Shown here one piece after another: positions 1,475 through 16,564 of a stretch of 33,562 nucleotides of DNA. Position 1 is the first letter of the stretch; every line of letters begins with the position of its first letter. The DNA comes from Granulosicoccus sp. Lineage in GTDB: Bacteria > Pseudomonadota > Gammaproteobacteria > Granulosicoccales > Granulosicoccaceae. The translations under genes and the position numbers were made by a program. Under the pieces are notes generated by a model. The model had not been told where the DNA came from. It saw only the letters and a program-made list of their open reading frames with translations, and made no database searches. The DNA is taken from contig JALZWO010000206.1 in assembly GCA_023300375.1 (NCBI GenBank), forward strand, positions 1 through 33,562. Reading direction: 5' to 3'.

Positions 1475-4400
1475 CTAAGCCACAGCAGCTCGATAGTTCA
1501 AGAACGCCTGCGCGGGTAACGCTTGCTGTAATTTCCAAGTGATCGCCATCGGTTGTTCACCCACATGTGATACGTAGTCAGCAAGGCCCACGCACAGGTA
1601 GGGAGCTGTGCGCCCATAGTCATCTTTTTTTCCATGTCGAACAAACAAGGCTACTTGACTACCATTAGCACGATGATGGATATAACGCTGCCCAGTGACT
1701 GATGCTTCCCGCGTCCGACCCTGGCTCTCCCAATGAAATAATTCACGAGTAATTGCATAGTCACGATACATAGTGGATGGACTGAAATCACGGTCGCTTT
1801 TGTTTAACGTAATAAAGAACAGATCAATGTTGCGATTCTCAACCCACTTAACGCCTTCTCTCACCTGAGGTGGTTTCTCCGGCGAACCAACATCAAACGC
1901 TGCGAGTATTTCGTTGAGACTGTAACTGGCGTGTAGCAACAACGGGGCTTCTTTTCCAAAAACCGCCCTACCTGTCTGAACATCACGACTCGTGCAAAGT
2001 AGTTGTAGCATCTGCAGAAGTTCTTGCAGCAACGGCTGACAACCCCAAAGGCGCCTCCAACCTTCCTCAAGCGACAACCCTTTGCTTACACCCCATATCA
2101 GGTAATGAAGTTGTGTGGCAAAACGACGTTCTTCTTCGTTTAGCTTAGCCACAAGAGGTGGACTATCGGCACTAAGCCATTTTACGAAAAGCGCACGACG
2201 GTTGTCGTCGTCGATGTACAACATGCGGCCGATAGCCCGACCTAGTGTTTTTTCATGGTCACCGGGTTTCCCCTCTAGGTATCCGCTGGCCCGTCGTAAC
2301 TCAGTATAGAAGTGGCTGCCTGTATAAATATCTGGAAGCTCTAAGCCAGTGGCTTCAAGAAAAGAGGCGAGATCCAAGTCGCCTAATGCCTTCGATTCTC
2401 TTTTTCTATCTGCCCAGCTAATGGGAATAGCTGCCCGAATGTTATCCAGAACTACTTGCTTGCTGATCTTGTCTAGTGTTATCGAACAACCCGCTGGCAA
2501 GAACGGGAAGTCGTCTTGAATTTGCTTCTCTACCTCCGGGCGTGTACCACCCAATAGTTTTCTGAAGCGTTGATCGAAGCGGAAGTCGGTTCGTTGGTGC
2601 CCCACAAAATCGAGTACCGTTAATACATCTTTGACCGAGTTCGCTCCATCTTCCGTTCGGCGTAAACCTCGGCCAAGCTGTTGGAGGAAAACTGTTGCAC
2701 TCTCGGTAGGTCGTAGAAACAGAACAGTATCAACTTCAGGTATGTCAACGCCTTCGTTGAATACATCAACAGCAAAAATTACTTGAATAACACCGGTGCG
2801 TAGCTGATCTATTGCAGTTGCTCGCTCGTCTCTATGCGTTTCACCTAAGACAGCGATTGCATTCAACCCAGCCGCCTGGAACCGACTAGCCATAAATTTT
2901 GCGTGATCTACAGATACGCAAAATCCTAGCGCACGCATAGATGAGGCATCAGTCACCTTATCTTTCAGCGCTTGAAGTACCTTGCCAAGCCACACGTCGT
3001 TGGCCGTGTAGAGGTTAGTGAGCTCGTTGGTGTCATAGCCGCCTTTCACCCAAGACACATCAGATAAGTCGGTGCCATCAGCAATACCGAAGTAATGAAA
3101 AGGCGACAAATATTGTTGCTCAAGCGCATCCCATAATCGAAGCTCAGCGGCGATTCGCCCTTCAAATATGTCTGCTACGTTGACACCGTCTGTGCGTTCT
3201 GGTGTTGCTGTCAACCCTAGCAGCTCTTTAGGCTGAACCCAATCAAGCAAGCCCTTGTAGCTGGGTGCTTCGGCATGATGGAATTCATCAATAATGACGA
3301 CATCAAAATGATCCTTAGGCAAGGCATTTAATGTACCTGCATTGATGCTTTGAATAGACGCAAACACATGTGTCCATTGATCAGGCTTCTCTCCATCTAC
3401 CCACAACTCCCCAAACGATGCAGAGCGCAATGCGAGCCTGAAGGTATGTAAACTCTGTCGCAGTATTTCCTTCCTATGTGCCACAAACAACAAATTGGCG
3501 CGTCCAGTGTCAGCGTCCATTCTACGGCGCAAGTTACGGTAATCGATGGCAGCCATCACGGTCTTACCGGTGCCGGTGGCTGCGACAATCAGGTTGCGAT
3601 GATGCCCTAACGTTCGCTCAAACTCGAGTTGTTCCAACAGTCCCTGCTGGAAAGGCTTAGGCATTAAATCAACGAACGAGAAATCGAACTCGTTGTTGCT
3701 TCTGGGCTGCGTCGCCACTCGATGTTGCGCCGCAAATTCTTCTGGGTCGTAGGGTACAAAATTGTCATCACGCCAGTAAGACTCGAAGGTGGCATCAAAC
3801 TTCTCAACCAAAGCAGCATTGCCCACAACCGATGCACGAACGTTCCATTCAAGCCCAGTAACCTGCGCCTGATGTGTCAAATTCGAGGAACCGATGTAAA
3901 CAGTGGTAAAGCCACTATGCCGACGAAATAGCCATGCCTTAGCATGTAGCCGAGTAGCGGTGCGATCGTAGGATACGCGCACCTCTGCGCCAGCGGCGCA
4001 CAACTCATCTAAAGCTCGTTGCTCGGTGGTGCCTGTGTAAGTTGTGGTCATCACCCGAACTACGCCGCCCTTTTGTGTCAACTGACGAATATGAGGAAGA
4101 AGCTGCCGAACACCTGTGAAGCGGATAAATGCTCCAAGGATATCCACGCCATCTGCTGATAGCAGCTCTGACTCCAGTTGACCCACCAGCGTGGGTTCAC
4201 CCGGTGCATTGGTCAGTAATGCTGTTTGCCCGAGCGCTATCTTCGGATGAGACACCGCTACTGCCTCACCTGTTGGCGTAGCTGCACGCAATGATGTGAG
4301 CACATGCGGTTTGACAAGGGCTACCACTGAATCATCACAGGCTTGCAGCTTTGGCAATCGTGCGCTCAAGTGATCAATCAACACATTGACTAAGTCAGCT

Positions 4401-4594
4401 CCAGCGTTCACCCGCTCCTTATCTGGGAATGCAGATATGGCACGATGCAGCACCGAGGCCATTAAGAGTGAATAGTATTCGGCAGCCTCCGAGGCGTCCA
4501 CTTCATTTGCCACACTGACAAGATCAGTGTTCGTCAAAGCCTGCTCAACAGCTTGTGTAATTAGCGTGTCGTAGGCACCACGATGTAGTTTCAC
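1475..4594 (-). CDS. PLD-nuclease / SF2 helicase / DUF3427 protein
   Basis: This 1039-residue protein fuses three modules. Residues about 130-280 are a phospholipase-D-like nuclease domain with HAK at 217-219 followed by GSSN at 235-238, the usual HxK...N half-site. Residues about 310-690 are a superfamily 2 helicase with Walker A GTGKT (341-345), DEFH (436-439), TATP (462-465) and a motif VI reading QQLGRGLRR. The C-terminal region (about 900-1030) matches the DUF3427 pattern, including the FHWESQ segment. Proteins of this build are cytoplasmic, ATP-dependent DNA enzymes and are suspected of roles in genome defence; that role is inference. The start is GTG at 4594 with only a weak ribosome site; no in-frame ATG is near. 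It stands alone on the minus strand with no methylase beside it. Confidence 0.88.
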   Translation of the reverse strand: MKLHRGAYDTLITQAVEQALTNTDLVSVANEVDASEAAEYYSLLMASVLHRAISAFPDKERVNAGADLVNVLIDHLSARLPKLQACDDSVVALVKPHVLTSLRAATPTGEAVAVSHPKIALGQTALLTNAPGEPTLVGQLESELLSADGVDILGAFIRFTGVRQLLPHIRQLTQKGGVVRVMTTTYTGTTEQRALDELCAAGAEVRVSYDRTATRLHAKAWLFRRHSGFTTVYIGSSNLTHQAQVTGLEWNVRASVVGNAALVEKFDATFESYWRDDNFVPYDPEEFAAQHRVATQPRSNNEFDFSFVDLMPKPFQQGLLEQLEFERTLGHHRNLIVAATGTGKTVMAAIDYRNLRRRMDADTGRANLLFVAHRKEILRQSLHTFRLALRSASFGELWVDGEKPDQWTHVFASIQSINAGTLNALPKDHFDVVIIDEFHHAEAPSYKGLLDWVQPKELLGLTATPERTDGVNVADIFEGRIAAELRLWDALEQQYLSPFHYFGIADGTDLSDVSWVKGGYDTNELTNLYTANDVWLGKVLQALKDKVTDASSMRALGFCVSVDHAKFMASRFQAAGLNAIAVLGETHRDERATAIDQLRTGVIQVIFAVDVFNEGVDIPEVDTVLFLRPTESATVFLQQLGRGLRRTEDGANSVKDVLTVLDFVGHQRTDFRFDQRFRKLLGGTRPEVEKQIQDDFPFLPAGCSITLDKISKQVVLDNIRAAIPISWADRKRESKALGDLDLASFLEATGLELPDIYTGSHFYTELRRASGYLEGKPGDHEKTLGRAIGRMLYIDDDNRRALFVKWLSADSPPLVAKLNEEERRFATQLHYLIWGVSKGLSLEEGWRRLWGCQPLLQELLQMLQLLCTSRDVQTGRAVFGKEAPLLLHASYSLNEILAAFDVGSPEKPPQVREGVKWVENRNIDLFFITLNKSDRDFSPSTMYRDYAITRELFHWESQGRTREASVTGQRYIHHRANGSQVALFVRHGKKDDYGRTAPYLCVGLADYVSHVGEQPMAITWKLQQALPAQAFLNYRAAVA

Positions 4595-4815: not shown

Positions 4816-5250
4816 GTGTTAAAGACTGCGGTAATACACCCCACTATCATGGAAGTGCTGGCGCGTTCAGGCCACTTCGCACAGGTTGTCATTGCGGACG
4901 GTAATTTGCCCGTCGGCGCGATGACAGGCCCTAACTCCACCACGGTGCATCTCAACTTTCGTCCCGGGCTACTAGATGCTCTCACGGTGCTTGAAGGCAT
5001 ACTGGAAGTCTGCCCTATTCAGGGTGCGATCGTGATGGAAAAGCCTGCAGAAGCAAGCGCAGAAATACACGATGCCTATAAAAAACTGCTCGGCGATGTC
5101 ACGTGGGACACCTTAGAGCGTTGGGCGTTCTACGAAAAGATCAGAAAACCGGCCACCACATTGATTATTCAAACGGGTGAGCAACGTCGCTTTGCGAATT
5201 TAATTCTGACCGTTGGTGTGGTGAAAATGGCTGAAGAAATAGGTTTTTAG
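4816..5250 (+). CDS. RbsD/FucU-family sugar mutarotase
   Basis: The 144-residue product matches RbsD/FucU mutarotases in length and layout. These cytoplasmic ring-forming enzymes interconvert the anomers or ring forms of sugars such as ribose or fucose before phosphorylation. The N-terminus MLKTAVIHPTIMEVLARSGH carries the conserved GH (His20), followed by D28 and NLP. The C-terminal part has WAFYEKI and a TGE...NLILTVGV ending, which is closer to FucU than to RbsD. The start is GTG 4816, chosen because AAGGA lies at 4803-4807. The FGGY sugar kinase 2.7 kb downstream, now separated by the AbiE unit, suggests a sugar-use locus. The actual sugar cannot be told from sequence. Confidence 0.85.
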   Translation: MLKTAVIHPTIMEVLARSGHFAQVVIADGNLPVGAMTGPNSTTVHLNFRPGLLDALTVLEGILEVCPIQGAIVMEKPAEASAEIHDAYKKLLGDVTWDTLERWAFYEKIRKPATTLIIQTGEQRRFANLILTVGVVKMAEEIGF

Positions 5251-5443: not shown

Positions 5444-5977
5444 GTGAACCCTCAAAAGCTGGCCTCGGGAGCTGTCTTCCCCAACATCACTGTGCCTAAA
5501 CTGGGCGGTGGCGAAATCACTCTGGGTAAGCCTGCTGCTCCCAATGATTGGCAACTAGTCATTATTTATCGTGGCAAGCATTGCCCTTTGTGTACTCGAT
5601 TGTTAACGGAGCTCAACGACTCTTTATCTGCGCTAAGCGATCTGAAAGTAGATGTAGTCGCAGTCTCAGCTGACTCCGCAGAAAAGGCGCAAGCGCAGAT
5701 TGAGCCGTTGGCTGTGGGTTACAGCGTTGGTTACGATTTAAGCCTCGAACATATGACGGAACTGGGTCTGTATATCTCTAACCCGCGCTCACCAGAAGAA
5801 ACCGACAGGCCTTTCGCTGAACCGGGTGCTTTTGTAATTAATGACAAGGGCGAGCTACAACTGATCGACATCTCCAATGCGCCTTTCCTCCGACCGCATC
5901 TACCGAGCGTGTTAGCAGGATTGGGCTTTATCCGTAATCCTGAAAACAATTACCCGATACGTGGCACATACAGCTAG
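5444..5977 (+). CDS. Peroxiredoxin-like (AhpC/TSA, CxxC) protein
   Basis: The 177-residue protein has the thioredoxin-fold peroxiredoxin layout: LASGAVFPNITVPKLGGG at the N-terminus, a strand VIIYRG leading to HCPLC (Cys47 and Cys50), then VVAVSADS, and GAFVINDKGEL near the end. Such proteins reduce peroxides or act as thiol oxidoreductases in the cytoplasm. The CxxC spacing is that of the AhpC/TSA-like branch (PRX-like) rather than of classic 2-Cys peroxiredoxins. The start is GTG 5444; the ribosome site is poor, so the true start is somewhat uncertain. Its last four codons and stop lie inside the first 78-bp direct repeat, so an insertion next to it left the gene intact. Confidence 0.85.
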   Translation: MNPQKLASGAVFPNITVPKLGGGEITLGKPAAPNDWQLVIIYRGKHCPLCTRLLTELNDSLSALSDLKVDVVAVSADSAEKAQAQIEPLAVGYSVGYDLSLEHMTELGLYISNPRSPEETDRPFAEPGAFVINDKGELQLIDISNAPFLRPHLPSVLAGLGFIRNPENNYPIRGTYS

Positions 5978-6031
5978 ATGCTTTAGTGTTGTAGGAGGTA
6001 TTTGTGTAGCTCGAATCAGCTATTTAGCCTA
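5954..6031 (+). repeat. 78-bp direct repeat, left copy
   Basis: These bases recur at 7815-7892, 1861 bp away, with a single mismatch (T at 5962 versus C at 7823). The copy includes the last codons and stop of the peroxiredoxin gene and then 54 bp of downstream sequence. The two copies enclose the AbiE operon. Confidence 0.97.
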
Positions 6032-6039
6032 CGGGGCAT

Positions 6040-6083
6040 AGGGACTACAAACCGCCTCTTCCTTGGCAGTTTTGTAGATCCCT
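6040..6083. repeat. Imperfect hairpin, 12-13 bp arms with one bulged base
   Basis: AGGGACTACAAA at 6040-6051 pairs with TTTGTAGATCCCT at 6071-6083, leaving one unpaired base in the right arm and a 19-base loop. It starts 9 bp inside the left direct repeat boundary. There is no run of T after it, so it is a poor terminator. Its role is unknown; it could be part of the recombination site of the AbiE unit or an end of the upstream transcript. Confidence 0.55.
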
Positions 6084-6111
6084 TGCTTTACCCTAGTGCT
6101 GCATAAATTTT

Positions 6112-6136
6112 ATAGTCGCGGTACTGCGACTGTTGC
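6112..6136. repeat. 25-bp dispersed repeat, copy 1
   Basis: This 25-bp stretch matches 11419-11443 at 22 of 25 positions, all three differences being transitions. Here it contains a perfect 6-bp inverted repeat, AGTCGC (6114-6119) and GCGACT (6126-6131). The second copy forms the 3' end of the broken FG-GAP/Fn3 gene, so this copy may be a scrap of a related gene. Chance similarity is not fully excluded. Confidence 0.4.
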
Positions 6137-6177
6137 ATAATGCAGGTATATATTGACATTTACCTACTATATGCAAC
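6132..6177. promoter_or_regulatory. Inverted repeat, candidate AbiEi operator/promoter
   Basis: A 17-bp arm at 6132-6148 (GTTGCATAATGCAGGTA) is matched in inverted orientation by 6161-6177 with 14 of 17 pairs, across a 12-bp spacer. The spacer holds TTGACA at 6153-6158, a consensus -35 box; a -10 is not clear (TACTAT at 6164-6169 is the best looking hexamer but does not pair with this -35). AbiEi antitoxins are known to repress their own operon by binding inverted repeats upstream. The position, 12 bp before the preferred abiEi start, fits that role. Confidence 0.6.
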
Positions 6178-6188
6178 AATATACAGAA

Positions 6189-6788
6189 ATGGGAACCTCA
6201 CAACAACGTGTCTTAGATCTCGCTGCAAAACGCGGTCTTATTCGCCCGCGCGATCTCGCTGAGCATGGCCTACCCAGTGTCACGCTAACGAGAATGGTTC
6301 GCCAAGGCTTACTAAACAGGGTGGGCCGAGGACTTTATGCCATTCCTGGACGTTCAGAGTCGGAGCACGGTTCGCTCGCAGAGATAGCACACACACATCC
6401 GCAGGCCATTTTCTGCCTACTCTCGGCACTGCGTTTACATGATCTTACTACGCAGGCACCCTTTGAAGTTTGGCTCGCCATTCCCAACAAATCGCGCCCA
6501 CCAAAAATTGATTACCCACCGCTTCGAATCGTGCGTTTTTCTGGTGTGGCACTGACTGAAGGGATCGAAGAGCATCAGATTGATGCTGTAACTGTGCTAG
6601 CTACCAACATTGCTCGTACAGTCGCCGATTGCTTCAAATTTCGTAATAAGATTGGTCTCGACGTCGCTTTGGAAGCACTGCAAGAGGCATGGCGCGAGAA
6701 ACGCGTGACTATGGACGAACTATGGCACTATGCCGCCGTCTGTCGCGTGACCAATGTGATGCGACCGTACATGGAAAGCCTGCCATGA
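6189..6788 (+). CDS. abiEi: AbiEi-type antitoxin / autorepressor
   Basis: The 199-residue protein is an AbiEi antitoxin, the protective partner of type IV toxin-antitoxin pairs. It has an N-terminal winged helix (RVLDLAAKRGLIRPRDLAEH, then VTLTRMVRQGLLNRVGRGLY) for DNA binding. The larger C-terminal domain carries FCLLSALRLHDLTTQAPFEVW, RIVRFSG and TVADCFKFRNKIGLDVALEAL. The family neutralises AbiEii without binding it tightly and represses the operon. I chose ATG 6189 because homologues begin near the RVLDLA helix. ATG 6171 and TTG 6153 are in frame, but 6153 would lie in the -35-like box. The stop overlaps the abiEii start (ATGA), so the two are co-translated. Confidence 0.9.
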   Translation: MGTSQQRVLDLAAKRGLIRPRDLAEHGLPSVTLTRMVRQGLLNRVGRGLYAIPGRSESEHGSLAEIAHTHPQAIFCLLSALRLHDLTTQAPFEVWLAIPNKSRPPKIDYPPLRIVRFSGVALTEGIEEHQIDAVTVLATNIARTVADCFKFRNKIGLDVALEALQEAWREKRVTMDELWHYAAVCRVTNVMRPYMESLP

Positions 6789-7696
6789 ACGAGCGCAATG
6801 TAGCAGCCTCAGTACGTGCTCGGCTGCTCAACCACGCTAGAGAAACAAAACAAGATTTTAATCTCGTACTAACACGCTACGCTATTGAGCGCCTTCTATA
6901 CAGACTTAGCCTATCAACGCACGCCAATAACTTTTTATTGAAAGGCGCGCTGTTGTTTGACTTGTGGTTCGACATTCCTCACCGTCCAACTAGAGATATC
7001 GACTTACTTGGATTCGGTTCGATAGAATTGCCAGACATTGAAAACGTGTTTAAAGACATCTGCAGCCTCGAGATCAATGATGGTGTAGTTTTCCTTGCAC
7101 AGAGCGTGCGTGCAATTGAGATTCGCTCCGATGCGAACTATTCTGGTGCCAGAGTGTTGTTGTTGGGCATGATCGAGAATGCACGCTGCCTGATTCAGAT
7201 CGACATCGGTTTTGGTGATGCGGTAACACCGGGACCAGAATATGCACAATACCCTGTAATGTTCGAGGAATTCGAAGCTCCCCAGCTCCGAGCGTATCCT
7301 CGCTACACAGTGGTAGCTGAGAAATTCGAAGCATTGACAGTTCTTGGAATTGCCAACAGTCGAATGAAGGATTATTTCGACTTATGGATATTTTCACGCT
7401 ATTGCGATTTTGAAGGTGACGTTCTTCGACATGCCGTTCAAGCTACTTTCAATGCTCGCAATACAATATTAACCAGAGAAACGCCTTTCGGCCTTACCTT
7501 GGCATTTGCACAAGATGCACAGAAAGATACACAGTGGCAGGCATTTCTTCGTAAGAATGAACTTGAAGCACCCACACTGAATGAGATTATTGAAGCGCTA
7601 GTTATCTTTATGCAGCCAGTTTTTGAAGCAGCTAGTGATAAATCAGTGCTCAGCACCTATTGGCACGCCGGGGGTCCTTGGTCAGTAGATCGTTGA
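6785..7696 (+). CDS. abiEii: AbiEii-type nucleotidyltransferase toxin
   Basis: This 303-residue protein is a DUF1814/AbiEii nucleotidyltransferase toxin. The polymerase-beta-like catalytic start is visible as FLLKGALLFDLWFDIP followed by TRDIDLLGFG (Asp71 and Asp73 as the DxD metal ligands). Downstream come VVAEKFEALTVLG and RMKDYFDLW, matching the family's later KxD-type motifs. Members modify RNA or block growth, and some stop phage infection by abortive infection; relatives such as MenT transfer nucleotides to tRNA. The start ATG 6785 overlaps the abiEi stop by 4 bp. All key residues are present, so the toxin looks functional. The pair sits alone between 78-bp direct repeats. Confidence 0.9.
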   Translation: MNERNVAASVRARLLNHARETKQDFNLVLTRYAIERLLYRLSLSTHANNFLLKGALLFDLWFDIPHRPTRDIDLLGFGSIELPDIENVFKDICSLEINDGVVFLAQSVRAIEIRSDANYSGARVLLLGMIENARCLIQIDIGFGDAVTPGPEYAQYPVMFEEFEAPQLRAYPRYTVVAEKFEALTVLGIANSRMKDYFDLWIFSRYCDFEGDVLRHAVQATFNARNTILTRETPFGLTLAFAQDAQKDTQWQAFLRKNELEAPTLNEIIEALVIFMQPVFEAASDKSVLSTYWHAGGPWSVDR

Positions 7697-7814
7697 GATA
7701 TAACTTGGGGTGGGATCCACACGCCGCAGCGAACTATCACAGGACTAGAAATCATCCGACGATTGGGTTAATCCAGGCTAATGAGGTATTTCGGAAAACA
7801 TACATCTCAGAGCG

Positions 7815-7892
7815 CCGATACGCGGCACATACAGCTAGATGCTTTAGTGTTGTAGGAGGTATTTGTGTAGCTCGAATCAGCTATTTAGCCTA
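7815..7892 (+). repeat. 78-bp direct repeat, right copy
   Basis: This is the second copy of the sequence at 5954-6031 (77 of 78 identical). It lies between abiEii and the sugar kinase and includes a non-functional copy of the peroxiredoxin gene tail. Outside the repeat, left and right flanks differ. The 118 bp between abiEii and this copy show no gene. Confidence 0.97.
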
Positions 7893-7934: not shown

Positions 7935-9515
7935 ATGACTGACTACATCATCGGCTTGGACTTCGGTTCAAGCTCGGCACGTGGCGTTCTGATAGAGGCG
8001 GCAACGGGGCATGAGCTCGCCTCCCACAGCCATGACTATCAACACGATATATTGTCGTCCTCCTTGCCCAACGGTTTGTTGTTGGGCAAAGGGTGGGCTT
8101 TGCAGGTAGCTACAGATTACCTGGATGCTGCTCAGATCATTCTGTCGACAATTGGGCGAGGTCGTAACGTATTGGCGTTAGGACTTGGTTTCACGGCGAG
8201 CTCACCGATGCCGACAACGCTTGAAGGAACACCGCTGTCAACCCTGTATCCAGACGATCCACACGCCTACGTAAAACTGTGGAAACACGGTGCAGCGCAG
8301 CCCCAAGCCGACAGGATCAATAAAGTAGGCGGCGCCTACTTGGATCGGTTCGGTGGCAAGCTCTCTGGTGAGTGGCTGTTGGCCAAAGCCTTGCAGATTG
8401 TGGAAGAATCACCTGATAGCTGGAACAGAACTGAACGTTTTATAGAAGCCGGTGACTGGCTTGTGTGGCAGCTAACAGGCAATGAAGTCAGAAGCCTTGG
8501 GTTCGCAGCCTACAAAGCACAATACGACCCTGAATCCGGGTATCCGAAAGATAGTGTTCCAGGACTTGAGTCGCGTTTGAATAAGCCGCACGCTATAGGC
8601 TCAAAAGCTGGCGATCTGTCTGCAGACTGGCAGGCAAGAACCGGAATAGAGGGTACTTGTAGCGTGGCTGTAGCCGTGATTGACAGCCATGTGGTGCTGC
8701 CTGCCATCGGGGCCGTGGAGGATGGTTGCTTTGTCGGTGCGCTGGGCACCTCGGCGGTATCGATGATGTTAACGCGTGAGTATCGTCCACTGCCCAAAGG
8801 CATCGAAGGCATGGCTCTCGACGGTTCGATTCGGGGGCTCTGGTGCTATGAGGCCGGCCAGGCAAGCTTTGGTGACACGCTGAGTTGGTTTGTTCAGATG
8901 TTTGCGCACAGGGATAATCTTGACAATAGCTTCGATTACTTCAATGAGGCTGCAACTCACATTGCGCCCGGGCAAAGCCGATTGCTCGCTCTGGATTGGT
9001 GGAATGGCAATCGAGTGCCGCATGCCAATTCATCGCTGAGTGGCCTGTTACTGGGGCTTACCAATCATACTGAGCCCGTAGAGATCTATAGAGCACTAGT
9101 TGAATCACTTTGTCTGGGGATGCGTCAGGTTTTCAATCTGTATGAGACAGGTGGTTTCAGCATCAACCGTGTGGTTATGACCAGTGGCCTGGCAATGCGT
9201 AATCCACTGGTCGTTCAGATCATGGCGGACGTTCTTGGTCGCGATATCGAAGTGCCAGATATGCCTAACCCGACTGCTCGGGGTGCAGCCATCCACGGCG
9301 CAGTGGCCGCAGGACTCGTCAAAGACTTTGCCGAAGGATCTGCACGATTTGGTGCAAGAACAACACAGACGTATCACCCTGATATGAGCGCCTTTGCGGT
9401 TTACTCAAGGCTGTTCAAGCAGTACGAGGCACTTTCCAACAATCCTGATGTTGCTGCCGCTATGAAGGTGCTTAGTGAAATACAAGTGGACGAGCCTAAG
9501 GGTTTCAAAACATGA
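7935..9515 (+). CDS. FGGY-family sugar kinase, ribulokinase-like
   Basis: The 526-residue protein opens with the FGGY phosphate-binding strand-loop YIIGLDFGSSSARGVLIE. It has GDWLVWQLTG in the middle, GALGTSAVSMM as the second ATP-binding loop, and LALDWWNGNRVPHANSSLSG, which closely follows the AraB ribulokinase pattern. The C-terminal adenosine loop reads TSGLAMRNPLVVQIMADVLG. It should phosphorylate a keto-pentose or related sugar with ATP in the cytoplasm. AraB proteins usually have GTSTC where this has GTSAV, so the substrate may differ and I give no symbol. ATG 7935 is preferred over the upstream frame from 7863, which lies inside the direct repeat. The RbsD/FucU gene upstream is a natural partner. 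Confidence 0.88.
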   Translation: MTDYIIGLDFGSSSARGVLIEAATGHELASHSHDYQHDILSSSLPNGLLLGKGWALQVATDYLDAAQIILSTIGRGRNVLALGLGFTASSPMPTTLEGTPLSTLYPDDPHAYVKLWKHGAAQPQADRINKVGGAYLDRFGGKLSGEWLLAKALQIVEESPDSWNRTERFIEAGDWLVWQLTGNEVRSLGFAAYKAQYDPESGYPKDSVPGLESRLNKPHAIGSKAGDLSADWQARTGIEGTCSVAVAVIDSHVVLPAIGAVEDGCFVGALGTSAVSMMLTREYRPLPKGIEGMALDGSIRGLWCYEAGQASFGDTLSWFVQMFAHRDNLDNSFDYFNEAATHIAPGQSRLLALDWWNGNRVPHANSSLSGLLLGLTNHTEPVEIYRALVESLCLGMRQVFNLYETGGFSINRVVMTSGLAMRNPLVVQIMADVLGRDIEVPDMPNPTARGAAIHGAVAAGLVKDFAEGSARFGARTTQTYHPDMSAFAVYSRLFKQYEALSNNPDVAAAMKVLSEIQVDEPKGFKT

Positions 9516-9669
9516 CAAATAGCGTAAAAGAGACGTTGAGGGTGTAAGGTGGCCATGTGGCATTTGAACGTTAAATTCATAGTCCTTGAGGACAATTGAA
9601 CACTGCTTGGGTCCAACGCAGAATCAGTAGTGTGCAACCGTGTACACAAAGACAGGTAGAATCCCCCAT

Positions 9670-14371: not shown

Positions 14372-16564
14372 ATGATCGCTCGCCTCATCCCCTGCGTTAA
14401 ATCTATTTGTGTAATGTCAATCTGCGCGTTGCTCGTGGCGGGTTGTTCTGGTTCTATTGGCACAGCGTCTAGCGAAGGTAGTGATGCAACTGTTGAAGAC
14501 GGTATTAATACCAATGCAAACGAAGCTACCGAAGATCAACAGAACGCTCAAAACCCAAATGACAATTTAAGTGGAAGTAATAATCAGCAAAACAACAATG
14601 CATCTACTGAATCCACAGATACTTCAGACAACACGAATTCAACCGAAACATCAATTCTTGAGTTAACACACGCTACCTTCAACATTACCGTTCCGGTTTT
14701 TGTTTCGGATTCACTTCAAGTTCGACTCACCTGGGGTGATACCGATATTATCGGCAGTTGGGTTTCGGATGAATCTTGGGTAATCGAATCAGACTTACCA
14801 ACAAATACGAATAACCTGCTTACTGTCATGTTCAATTATGACAATGGAGCAATTGCTTTGGGCAGTGTCGAAACTAACTTTGCAACCGGAACACAAGCTA
14901 CGCAAACCTATACCATTTCAGCGGATGATTTTGACACGGCTAGGTGGGATAACGATGGGGATGGGTTTAGCAATCTGGATGAATTACTCACCGGCACAAA
15001 CCCACAAGCGATAGATGCACCGCTTGCTCTACAGGCCTCACTAACGCTCGAACCGGGAAGCATCGTACGTATCAATTGGCAAGCATCCCCTAGAGCAGAT
15101 TACTATCGCGTTTTTGAAAGCCCTCATGGTCTATCGGTATTAACTCAGATCAGCGATGATCTTAATGCTTCAACTGAGGAGTTCAGTCTCAGAGTACCGC
15201 TGCATAAGCGTGCAAACGCAAAGTATATGGTGCAAGCATGCAATACCGTTGACTGTACAGATTCAACCAGTTTGCTCGATATAGGCACCTTAGAAGATGC
15301 ACTTACTTTCGTGACGCCAAATCACATTGAAAGTGGTGATCGATTTGGAAATTCCGTTGCGTTTAGTGCTGACGGCCAAACCTTGGTGATTGGTGCACCT
15401 ACAGAAAGCAGCGCAGCCACCGGAGTGAATGGGGATCCATTTGATAACTCACTGGCAGGGACGGGGGCAGCTTATGTATTTGTGCGCGTTGATGGTCAAT
15501 GGCAACAACAAGCTTATTTAAAAGCGAGCAATGCAGGCCAATCAGATCAATTTGGTTCAGCTGTTAGTGTTAGTGCCGATGGCAATACCATTGCGGTGGG
15601 GGCCTATGGAGAGGCCAGTGCATCCACTGGTATAAATGGCAATCAGACTAACAATTCATCATTTAGAGCAGGTGCGGTTTATGTCTTTGTGCGAAGTAAT
15701 GATGTTTGGACACAACAGGCCTATGTAAAGGCTAGCAATACTCAACAAGACAATTACTTTGGTCGAGCAGTTAGTTTGAGCGCGAACGGCAATACGCTAG
15801 CCGTCGGCGCGCACGATGAGAAAAGTGATGCCACTGAAGTTAATGGTGATCAAACACAAAATTCTAATCGTAATTCTGGTGCTGCCTATCTATACACTCG
15901 CCAGAATAATCTTTGGTCTCAGCAAGCCTATTTAAAGGCGTTCAGAGAAGGAAGTGACGCCTGCTGTTTTGGCGGACTTGGCACAGTGCTAAGCCTTAGT
16001 GCCGATGGCCAAACCTTAGCTGCAGGAATGCAATACCGAAGCGAGCGCGCCATCATATTCACTCAAGTAAACGAAAGCTGGCAACAAACTGCAACCATTG
16101 AATCCCCCAATCGACAACTTGATGGAGATTTCGGGGAAAAATTAAGTATCAGTGGAGATGGTCAAACTATCGCCATTACCGCTGTTGGTGAGGTCCCAAT
16201 AGACGAGCAGGGAAGTCGGATCATTGGGACCGAGGAAGGCGTAGCCTATGTATTCACTCTTGAAGAGGGTGAATGGCAAGAGCAGGCTTACCTCTATATT
16301 GAAGAGCACCCCAACGGCCGACGATTTGCTCTAGATACGGATATAAGTTCAGACGGAAACACAATGGCAGTAACGTTCAATGCTAATCGGATATACATTT
16401 ACACCAGAAATGAAGGTACTTGGACCAATGTTTCGATACTGCCTGACACCACCCCAATTCCATCACTTTCTATTAGCCATCCTAGATTCAATGGAAACGG
16501 TGATTCCATGGCGACTACCGGGGGTAGACCCTCATTAGGTGAATTCGGTGCTTATTTATTTTGA
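14372..16564 (+). CDS. FG-GAP beta-propeller lipoprotein with Ca-binding loop
   Basis: The 730-residue protein has a lipoprotein signal, ICALLVAGC, with the acylated cysteine at 25. A long Asn/Gln/Thr/Ser-rich linker follows to about residue 95, as in surface-displayed proteins. Residues about 192-205 hold an EF-hand or thrombospondin-3-type loop (DNDGDGFSNLDE). An Fn3-like stretch (RINWQASPRADYYRVF) comes next. From about 323 there are five or more propeller repeats of about 70 residues with the form FG..VS.SADG.T.AVGA followed by GAAYVF. It is probably anchored in the outer membrane and binds a partner or polymer. ATG 14372 is preferred over TTG 14360, giving a normal n-region and GGA at 14362-14364 as ribosome site. 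Confidence 0.82.
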   Translation: MIARLIPCVKSICVMSICALLVAGCSGSIGTASSEGSDATVEDGINTNANEATEDQQNAQNPNDNLSGSNNQQNNNASTESTDTSDNTNSTETSILELTHATFNITVPVFVSDSLQVRLTWGDTDIIGSWVSDESWVIESDLPTNTNNLLTVMFNYDNGAIALGSVETNFATGTQATQTYTISADDFDTARWDNDGDGFSNLDELLTGTNPQAIDAPLALQASLTLEPGSIVRINWQASPRADYYRVFESPHGLSVLTQISDDLNASTEEFSLRVPLHKRANAKYMVQACNTVDCTDSTSLLDIGTLEDALTFVTPNHIESGDRFGNSVAFSADGQTLVIGAPTESSAATGVNGDPFDNSLAGTGAAYVFVRVDGQWQQQAYLKASNAGQSDQFGSAVSVSADGNTIAVGAYGEASASTGINGNQTNNSSFRAGAVYVFVRSNDVWTQQAYVKASNTQQDNYFGRAVSLSANGNTLAVGAHDEKSDATEVNGDQTQNSNRNSGAAYLYTRQNNLWSQQAYLKAFREGSDACCFGGLGTVLSLSADGQTLAAGMQYRSERAIIFTQVNESWQQTATIESPNRQLDGDFGEKLSISGDGQTIAITAVGEVPIDEQGSRIIGTEEGVAYVFTLEEGEWQEQAYLYIEEHPNGRRFALDTDISSDGNTMAVTFNANRIYIYTRNEGTWTNVSILPDTTPIPSLSISHPRFNGNGDSMATTGGRPSLGEFGAYLF

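Follow-up and report, generated by a model that had tools for sequence, protein, structure and literature searches.

Bicistronic AbiE loci, which encode AbiEi (PF13338) and AbiEii (PF08843) behind a promoter with an inverted repeat, are described as type IV toxin-antitoxin (TA) systems (PMC3985639). Such a pair was reported to stabilise its carrier DNA, the integrative and conjugative element (ICE) ICESsuHN105 (PMC11062541). Cargo lying between two repeats at a gene 3' end, without integrase and without transfer genes, is known from CIMEs, described as cis-mobilizable elements (PMC5704250), and putative phage defence genes are found between direct repeats at a gene 3' end in the transfer-messenger RNA (tmRNA) islands I23, I44 and I55 (PMC12595487). 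Here we describe an AbiE pair of Granulosicoccus sp. that is bounded by two copies of the tail of a peroxiredoxin gene (prx). It lies on contig C206 (33,562 bases, analysed in its entirety and called the window below) of a 4.58-Mb draft genome in 247 contigs. No difference from the AbiE type IV systems was seen in its genes; its repeat-bounded setting is what differs. Unlike the ICESsuHN105 pair, which acts on a large ICE, it has no ICE recognised at its locus (PMC11062541); in contrast to I23, I44 and I55, which encode IntY and have 14-bp repeats, its unit has no integrase and repeats of 78 bp (PMC12595487); and, other than for CIMEs, no parent element or site-matching integrase was recognised for it. 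We consider it somewhat probable that a TA islet inserted behind the peroxiredoxin gene and left a 78-bp duplication of the gene tail on its far side, with no dedicated integrase.

A repeat search of the window (seed 14, minimum 30 nt) identified direct repeats at 5954-6031 and 7815-7892, each of 78 nt, which are identical at 77 of 78 positions (one mismatch), have a start spacing of 1861 and enclose a stretch of 1783 bp (6032-7814). The left copy (plus strand) consists of the last 24 nt of the peroxiredoxin open reading frame (ORF) and 54 further nt, and the right copy (plus strand) stands without the remainder of that gene. Both the repeats around abiEi and abiEii and their relation to the peroxiredoxin 3' end had been claimed by an earlier reading of this DNA, hereafter the original prediction, and were borne out by the coordinates. 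The gene (5444-5977, plus strand; AhpC/TSA, PF00578, E 3.3e-17) ends with the C-terminal motif YPIRGT, which is common to its nearest relatives, on which ground we regard the left copy as the gene's native end and the right copy as the additional one. The single mismatch is a synonymous third-position change in the peroxiredoxin gene. The pair scored 75.5, whereas none of 589 anchor pairs drawn from other genomes (19 stretches) exceeded 28; a twentieth stretch (L250; compared loci and genomes carry L and G numbers), in which a tandem gene array gives scores as high as 1006, was excluded from these anchors. The match far exceeds what chance produces. One other direct-repeat family was listed in the window, inside one ORF (15345-16020), where a 43-nt unit occurs four times in diverged form at intervals of 207-219, the product being a repeat protein.

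We considered the possibility that contigs had been falsely joined at a 78-bp overlap, the draft being in 247 contigs and the window being one whole contig. Yet a one-base difference distinguishes the copies, each is flanked by unique sequence, a like layout is present in the single-contig genome G397, and assemblers collapse repeats more readily than they invent them. We therefore regard an assembly artefact as very improbable.

The ORFs of at least 80 aa between the copies are abiEi, abiEii and two ORFs antisense to abiEii. abiEi (6189-6788, plus strand; PF13338 E 3.6e-14, PADLOC AbiEi E 2.1e-86), for which the ATG start was picked by comparison with relatives, encodes the antitoxin and repressor of the pair, and overlaps by ATGA with abiEii (6785-7696, plus strand; PF08843 E 1.2e-43, PADLOC AbiEii E 1.3e-107), which encodes the nucleotidyltransferase-family toxin. 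A predicted operator (6131-6178) directly upstream of abiEi comprises a 9-bp inverted repeat, TGTTGCATA (6131-6139) and TATGCAACA (6170-6178), the arms of which flank a TTGACA. With AbiEi and AbiEii in one operon and an inverted repeat at the promoter, the unit appears, from its sequence, to be an AbiE type IV system. In a comparison with 41 other abiE loci, no noncoding DNA of the unit had relatives at the nucleotide level apart from the operator (about 6128-6178), which matched L035, L123, L121 and L023. Nonsynonymous (dN) and synonymous (dS) divergence from genome G024 amounted to 0.105 and 1.97 for abiEi and to 0.181 and 2.15 for abiEii; in comparison with six relatives, dN ranged from 0.105 to 0.294 and from 0.181 to 0.284, respectively, with dS saturated or between 1.6 and 2.1. 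These values indicate that both genes are under purifying selection, and, with the operator palindrome kept as well, the pair has been selected as protein-coding DNA for most of its history. Purifying selection on the pair gives no date for the insertion.

No recombinase gene was recognised between the 78-bp copies in the ORF list or with Pfam: where a self-integrating element would need an integrase, only abiEi, abiEii and the two antisense ORFs were found, in agreement with the claim that the unit contains neither integrase nor transposase. A transposon or miniature inverted-repeat transposable element was rejected, as there are no terminal inverted repeats, exact inverted matches within the outermost 60 nt being no longer than 5 nt. 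An integron cassette was rejected as well, since on both strands the two copies fold no better than shuffled sequences (z -0.52 to 0.17), whereas better folding would be expected of an attC hairpin. The window contains no tRNA or tmRNA, and no Rfam match near the repeats reached gathering level, one weak small nucleolar RNA match (E 0.91) being located inside abiEi. The original prediction had also proposed a search for the 78 bp next to other cargo. This was not observed: there was no further copy in the 247 contigs of the own draft (201-base query over the repeat; remaining matches E at least 0.23), none in 56 other genomes (617-base query containing the repeat; matches only to its coding part), no blastn match in plasmids or phages, and no match in viral contigs to one exact 23-base pattern from the repeat.

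The layout recurs around other AbiE pairs. A first test of the flanks of 26 abiE loci yielded a second case, L123. A pooled set was then drawn from 398 genomes of the phylum, in which AbiEii (PF08843) was matched in 85; 80 of the listed places were taken, and six earlier loci of the same genomes (L123 among them) and 20 loci from a class survey were added, giving 106, of which 100 had enough flank to be testable. At a score of at least 29, direct repeats were found at 9/100 loci, versus inverted repeats at 1/100 (one-sided Fisher p 0.009) and direct repeats at 1/80 random places (p 0.022), and at a score of at least 50, direct repeats were found at 5/100 versus inverted ones at 0/100 (p 0.03), all p values being indicative, as the thresholds of 29 and 50 were fixed after the scores were known. 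The sole positive among the random places was the tandem gene array L250, which was retained in this count.

Four of the five loci reaching a score of 50 have their repeats at protein genes. In L123 (genome G457), an M78-peptidase ORF has its 3' end present twice (112 bp, 95.5% identity, spacing 1790); at the left copy the ORF is retained but has another C-terminus, and the right copy resembles the displaced tail. In L226, a 106/108-bp match joins two traA tails ending at the stop codon, in L182 the repeat of 57 bp extends across the cinA start, between mutS and cinA, and in L206 a repeat of 206 bp (91%) covers most of a small ORF. The fifth, L232, has a 91-bp repeat at a tRNA-Met 3' end. Among the other four of the nine, the repeat of L103 overlaps a tRNA-Glu 3' end and that of L110 is tRNA-like by eye. 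A plasmid locus, L111 (84-bp repeats, spacing 3501), was set aside because of insertion sequence and replication genes around or between its copies. No recombinase was recognised between the repeats of the survey loci by reading their ORF lists, no profile search of every ORF having been made. Gene-tail scars border about 1 in 20 of the related AbiE pairs examined, and the repeat-bounded abiE is a recurring kind of TA islet.

The case at traA has a described counterpart. In hotspot 2 of SXT/R391 elements, inserts begin right after the traA stop codon, MosT carries DUF1814, and mosAT promotes maintenance of the ICE by killing or inhibiting the cells that lose it (PMC2791158, PMC2654960). The gene order of L226 is traV, traA, AbiE pair, other cargo and dsbC, and its traA part is 97-99% identical to pR997 and to E. 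coli chromosomal copies. R997 being an element of this type, we take L226 to be an SXT/R391-type ICE; DUF1814 is the older name of the AbiEii domain. Resembling the window unit, L226 and E. coli cq9 (L357) have a second traA tail after the AbiE pair, which in cq9 stands before another cargo gene; the difference is that the SXT/R391 pair resides inside a conjugative element. The repeat in these elements may have arisen by cargo stacking, and for cq9 it is reasonable to assume that recombination stacked two cargoes. The traA query is also listed at two places in three further E. coli records.

We also considered a contrast set of 45 RelE/ParE loci, for which there is no inverted-repeat control, and 4 of which scored at least 35. 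Copies of a gene boundary surround the RelE/ParE pair in L261, one of these four, and in L296 and L324, which had lower scores; L269, L300 and L305 have repeats without explanation. In L261 the ParE-type locus lies between copies of about 152 bp (1272-1422 and 2079-2230; 92.8%), which comprise the beginning of a 452-aa ORF. The repeat pattern may belong to TA pairs generally, or to small insertions generally.

Insertion was seen in one analogue, L182. Its genus was searched in 61 genomes, 60 of which matched, and the own locus and the best 29 of the 59 others were examined. All 29 other loci have the mutS and cinA parts together and no abiEii match, and represent the empty site. The 57-bp segment was matched once each in 15 of the 29 loci, and in the other 14 the match was to the wider leader only. 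In L182 the left copy leads on into mutS on the native side, the right one into cinA. One position has, in both copies, a base that is absent from all nine relatives compared, and at the sole position that differs between the copies the nine relatives agree with the right one. This suggests that the site of the recipient itself was the source of the second copy. Gene conversion at a later time, or a donor belonging to the same strain, would give the same picture. In this one analogue, the comparison of loci shows an insertion that was accompanied by a second copy.

In the genus of the window, a peroxiredoxin relative was found in 26/27 genomes (1e-20, own genome counted) and an AbiEii match in 3/27, the own one included, with none in 24/27 at 1e-5. 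Carriage of the repeats and abiE by all relatives, the outcome that the original prediction had set against itself, is therefore not what the genus displays. The AbiEii of G024 is 71% identical and lies on another contig than the G024 prx, that of G012 consists of two fragments at contig ends, and full-length relatives (71-74%) are scattered in Proteobacteria. At 29 distinct prx loci of the genus there was no duplicated tail, except that in one of them 15 bp match a tandem repeat close by; most of these loci reach 1.5 kb downstream, less than the spacing of 1861, so that only six longer ones provide a fair test. At the loci of seven relatives, prx alone was matched and no other tested window gene was nearby, and the exact empty site for which the original prediction had proposed a search, the peroxiredoxin gene with a single 78-bp site and no AbiE, was not found among these seven.

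These data bear on the possibility of a local rearrangement, in which abiE was already present and a tandem duplication followed by a deletion left a second tail behind it. One mismatch in 78 is compatible with a recent local copy, and the 24-nt coding part fits any breakpoint. Yet this course needs two events, the sporadic occurrence of abiE in the genus (3/27) argues against it, and so does the L182 analogue, where the other loci lack both abiE and the second copy. We regard it as improbable.

A stronger alternative is that the two copies represent attL and attR sites of an integrative element once present at the 3' end of the peroxiredoxin gene; the element would have brought its own gene tail and later lost its integrase and transfer genes, leaving abiE by an att site as a CIME-like remnant, excisable in trans. 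This is suggested by close relatives of the pair, which adjoin tmRNA or tRNA 3' ends as cargo of site-specific islands. Rfam detected a tmRNA in 7 of the 12 loci given, and in six of these (L018, L019, L022-L025) a tmRNA gene or its 3' part has its CCA end 343-349 nt before abiEi. Fourteen loci were examined for the island end, 280-460 nt upstream only; it was found and measured in 12, and in 6 of these (L018, L019, L021, L022, L023 and L025) it lies exactly 349 nt before abiEi. The stretch from the island end to abiEi (348 nt) is mostly conserved in L090, L023, L021, L018, L025 and L022, and more weakly in others. In L020 (Zhongshania aquimaris), abiE is located between two identical 29-nt tmRNA-type 3' ends (spacing 2356), and a tyrosine integrase (PF00589) is encoded next to this unit, beyond the repeats. 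The association of these relatives with tmRNA and integrase indicates that this abiE lineage does travel on site-specific islands. The degraded flanks of abiE in G024 look like tRNA ends by eye, though ARAGORN and Rfam detect no tRNA there; a putative integrase remnant in that genome (L035 8412-8594, by eye) had no Pfam match at 0.001 and was not counted, nor was L028, in which a partial abiEii lies 2.7 kb from a tmRNA, counted as adjacent.

Some further features of abiE loci were noticed. Downstream of abiE in L018 (3034-3513 and neighbours), ORFs resemble by eye a large serine recombinase and a ParB-like helix-turn-helix protein, and a similar converging ORF follows abiE in L019, L021, L022 and L090, again by eye. 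L091 (reverse complement, 9335-9664) contains, some 3.3 kb downstream of its AbiE pair, a segment that resembles an island end and is 82% identical to the one in L019, and L026, from a Pseudomonadota metagenome-assembled genome, has a group II intron match (1517-1595) upstream of abiEi.

When the window unit is compared with such remnants, it has the direct repeats at a gene 3' end. Yet no attP-like match was found and no integrase is known for the site, no integration or transfer genes are among the inter-repeat ORFs, and no integrase or other remnant of a parent element was recognised in the unit. In addition, no other copy of the 78 bp was found in the own draft, the 56 genomes, plasmids or phages, the window has a protein-gene tail where the islands have a tRNA-like site, the prx loci of the genus, six of them long enough, lack a duplicated tail (barring the 15-bp match), and the conserved stretch at the tmRNA-island end has no match in the window. 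Descent from such an element is, in our opinion, rather unlikely, though far from negligible.

We favour insertion of the islet at a gene boundary, for which we argue by analogy at the prx site. Incoming DNA with the AbiE pair would have been captured there by general DNA repair or recombination, candidate routes being the fill-in of a staggered break, template switching and one-sided homologous recombination; as background, duplications can arise through natural transformation (PMC3784515). The 78-bp duplication would be the footprint of this capture, for which the unit itself encodes no machinery. Crossing over between the two repeats would remove the pair and re-create the former site, but the cells concerned would lose the antitoxin and be poisoned by the lingering toxin, so that the repeat-bounded state would persist. 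We infer that the islet is probably kept by such addiction. General capture is preferred to att-type integration because the gene ends involved (prx, M78 peptidase, traA, cinA start) are very different, which speaks against one site-specific integrase, and because no integrase was recognised with them. The original prediction had left the choice between a mobile insertion and a duplication that trapped the TA pair. Insertion gained support from the recurrence of the layout at unrelated genes and from the empty sites of L182; mobility did not, no third copy having been found in the draft genome or the other collections searched.

Several points weigh against this explanation, in addition to the island association of the close relatives and the late choice of the survey thresholds. 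At a score of at least 50, the difference between AbiE loci (5/100) and random places (1/80) was not significant (p 0.17). L123, L103, L107 and L110 were known before the pooled count, and two of the nine loci counted, L107 (by a long repetitive ORF) and L222 (REP-like, with a third copy nearby), are probably something else. No genome was found with an empty prx-kinase junction, and the surroundings of prx differ in the relatives. The traA tail was single in 6/7 further ICE loci compared with L226, five of them with an AbiE pair (L355, L358-L361) and one (L356) with a GNAT/DUF1778 pair. Finally, 14 of the 18 differences between the copies of L206 are at third codon positions (p 1.4e-4), which suggests that its extra copy came from a foreign functional homologue rather than from a duplication in the recipient. 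As L182 and L206 point in opposite ways, we claim no single mechanism for all cases; the mechanisms may differ.

The unit is flanked, outside the repeats, by an RbsD/FucU family gene on the left (4816-5250, plus strand; PF05025, E 1.1e-30) and by an FGGY-family carbohydrate kinase gene on the right (7935-9515, plus strand; PF02782, E 1.3e-35). These two perhaps belong to one sugar pathway, split by the peroxiredoxin gene and abiE. The kinase had no match in 26 other genomes of the genus (E 1e-60) or in 368 other genomes of the class (E 1e-100). Further upstream, a large DEAD-helicase/PLD/DUF3427 protein is encoded on the minus strand (1475-4594), the best PADLOC match of which is a type IV methyl-directed restriction enzyme; with abiE nearby, it may be part of a small neighbourhood of defence genes.

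It has long been asked how TA pairs come to lie in chromosomes and why they remain there. Among the titles and abstract starts listed by searches of the open-licence literature, there was no description of TA pairs bordered by duplicated gene tails; Ramisetty and Santhosh reportedly dealt in 2016 with TA loci on the E. coli chromosome and the direct repeats that flank them, which may overlap with the present observations. The gene-tail repeats are a readable scar, which locates the insertion and predicts both the deletion product and the exact empty site, a single 78-bp prx tail followed directly by ACCTTATCGG of the kinase side. With such a scar, one can also test directly whether addiction guards against loss through the repeats. 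We tentatively put forward, as a possibility, that TA pairs of several families enter chromosomes by being captured independently of a recombinase, with about 40-200 bp of a gene end duplicated in the process, that addiction punishes the crossover that would erase such an islet, the repeats being a signature of survivorship, and that these repeats may later serve as homology for spread between strains. Gene-tail scars hint in this way at how TA genes settle in chromosomes.

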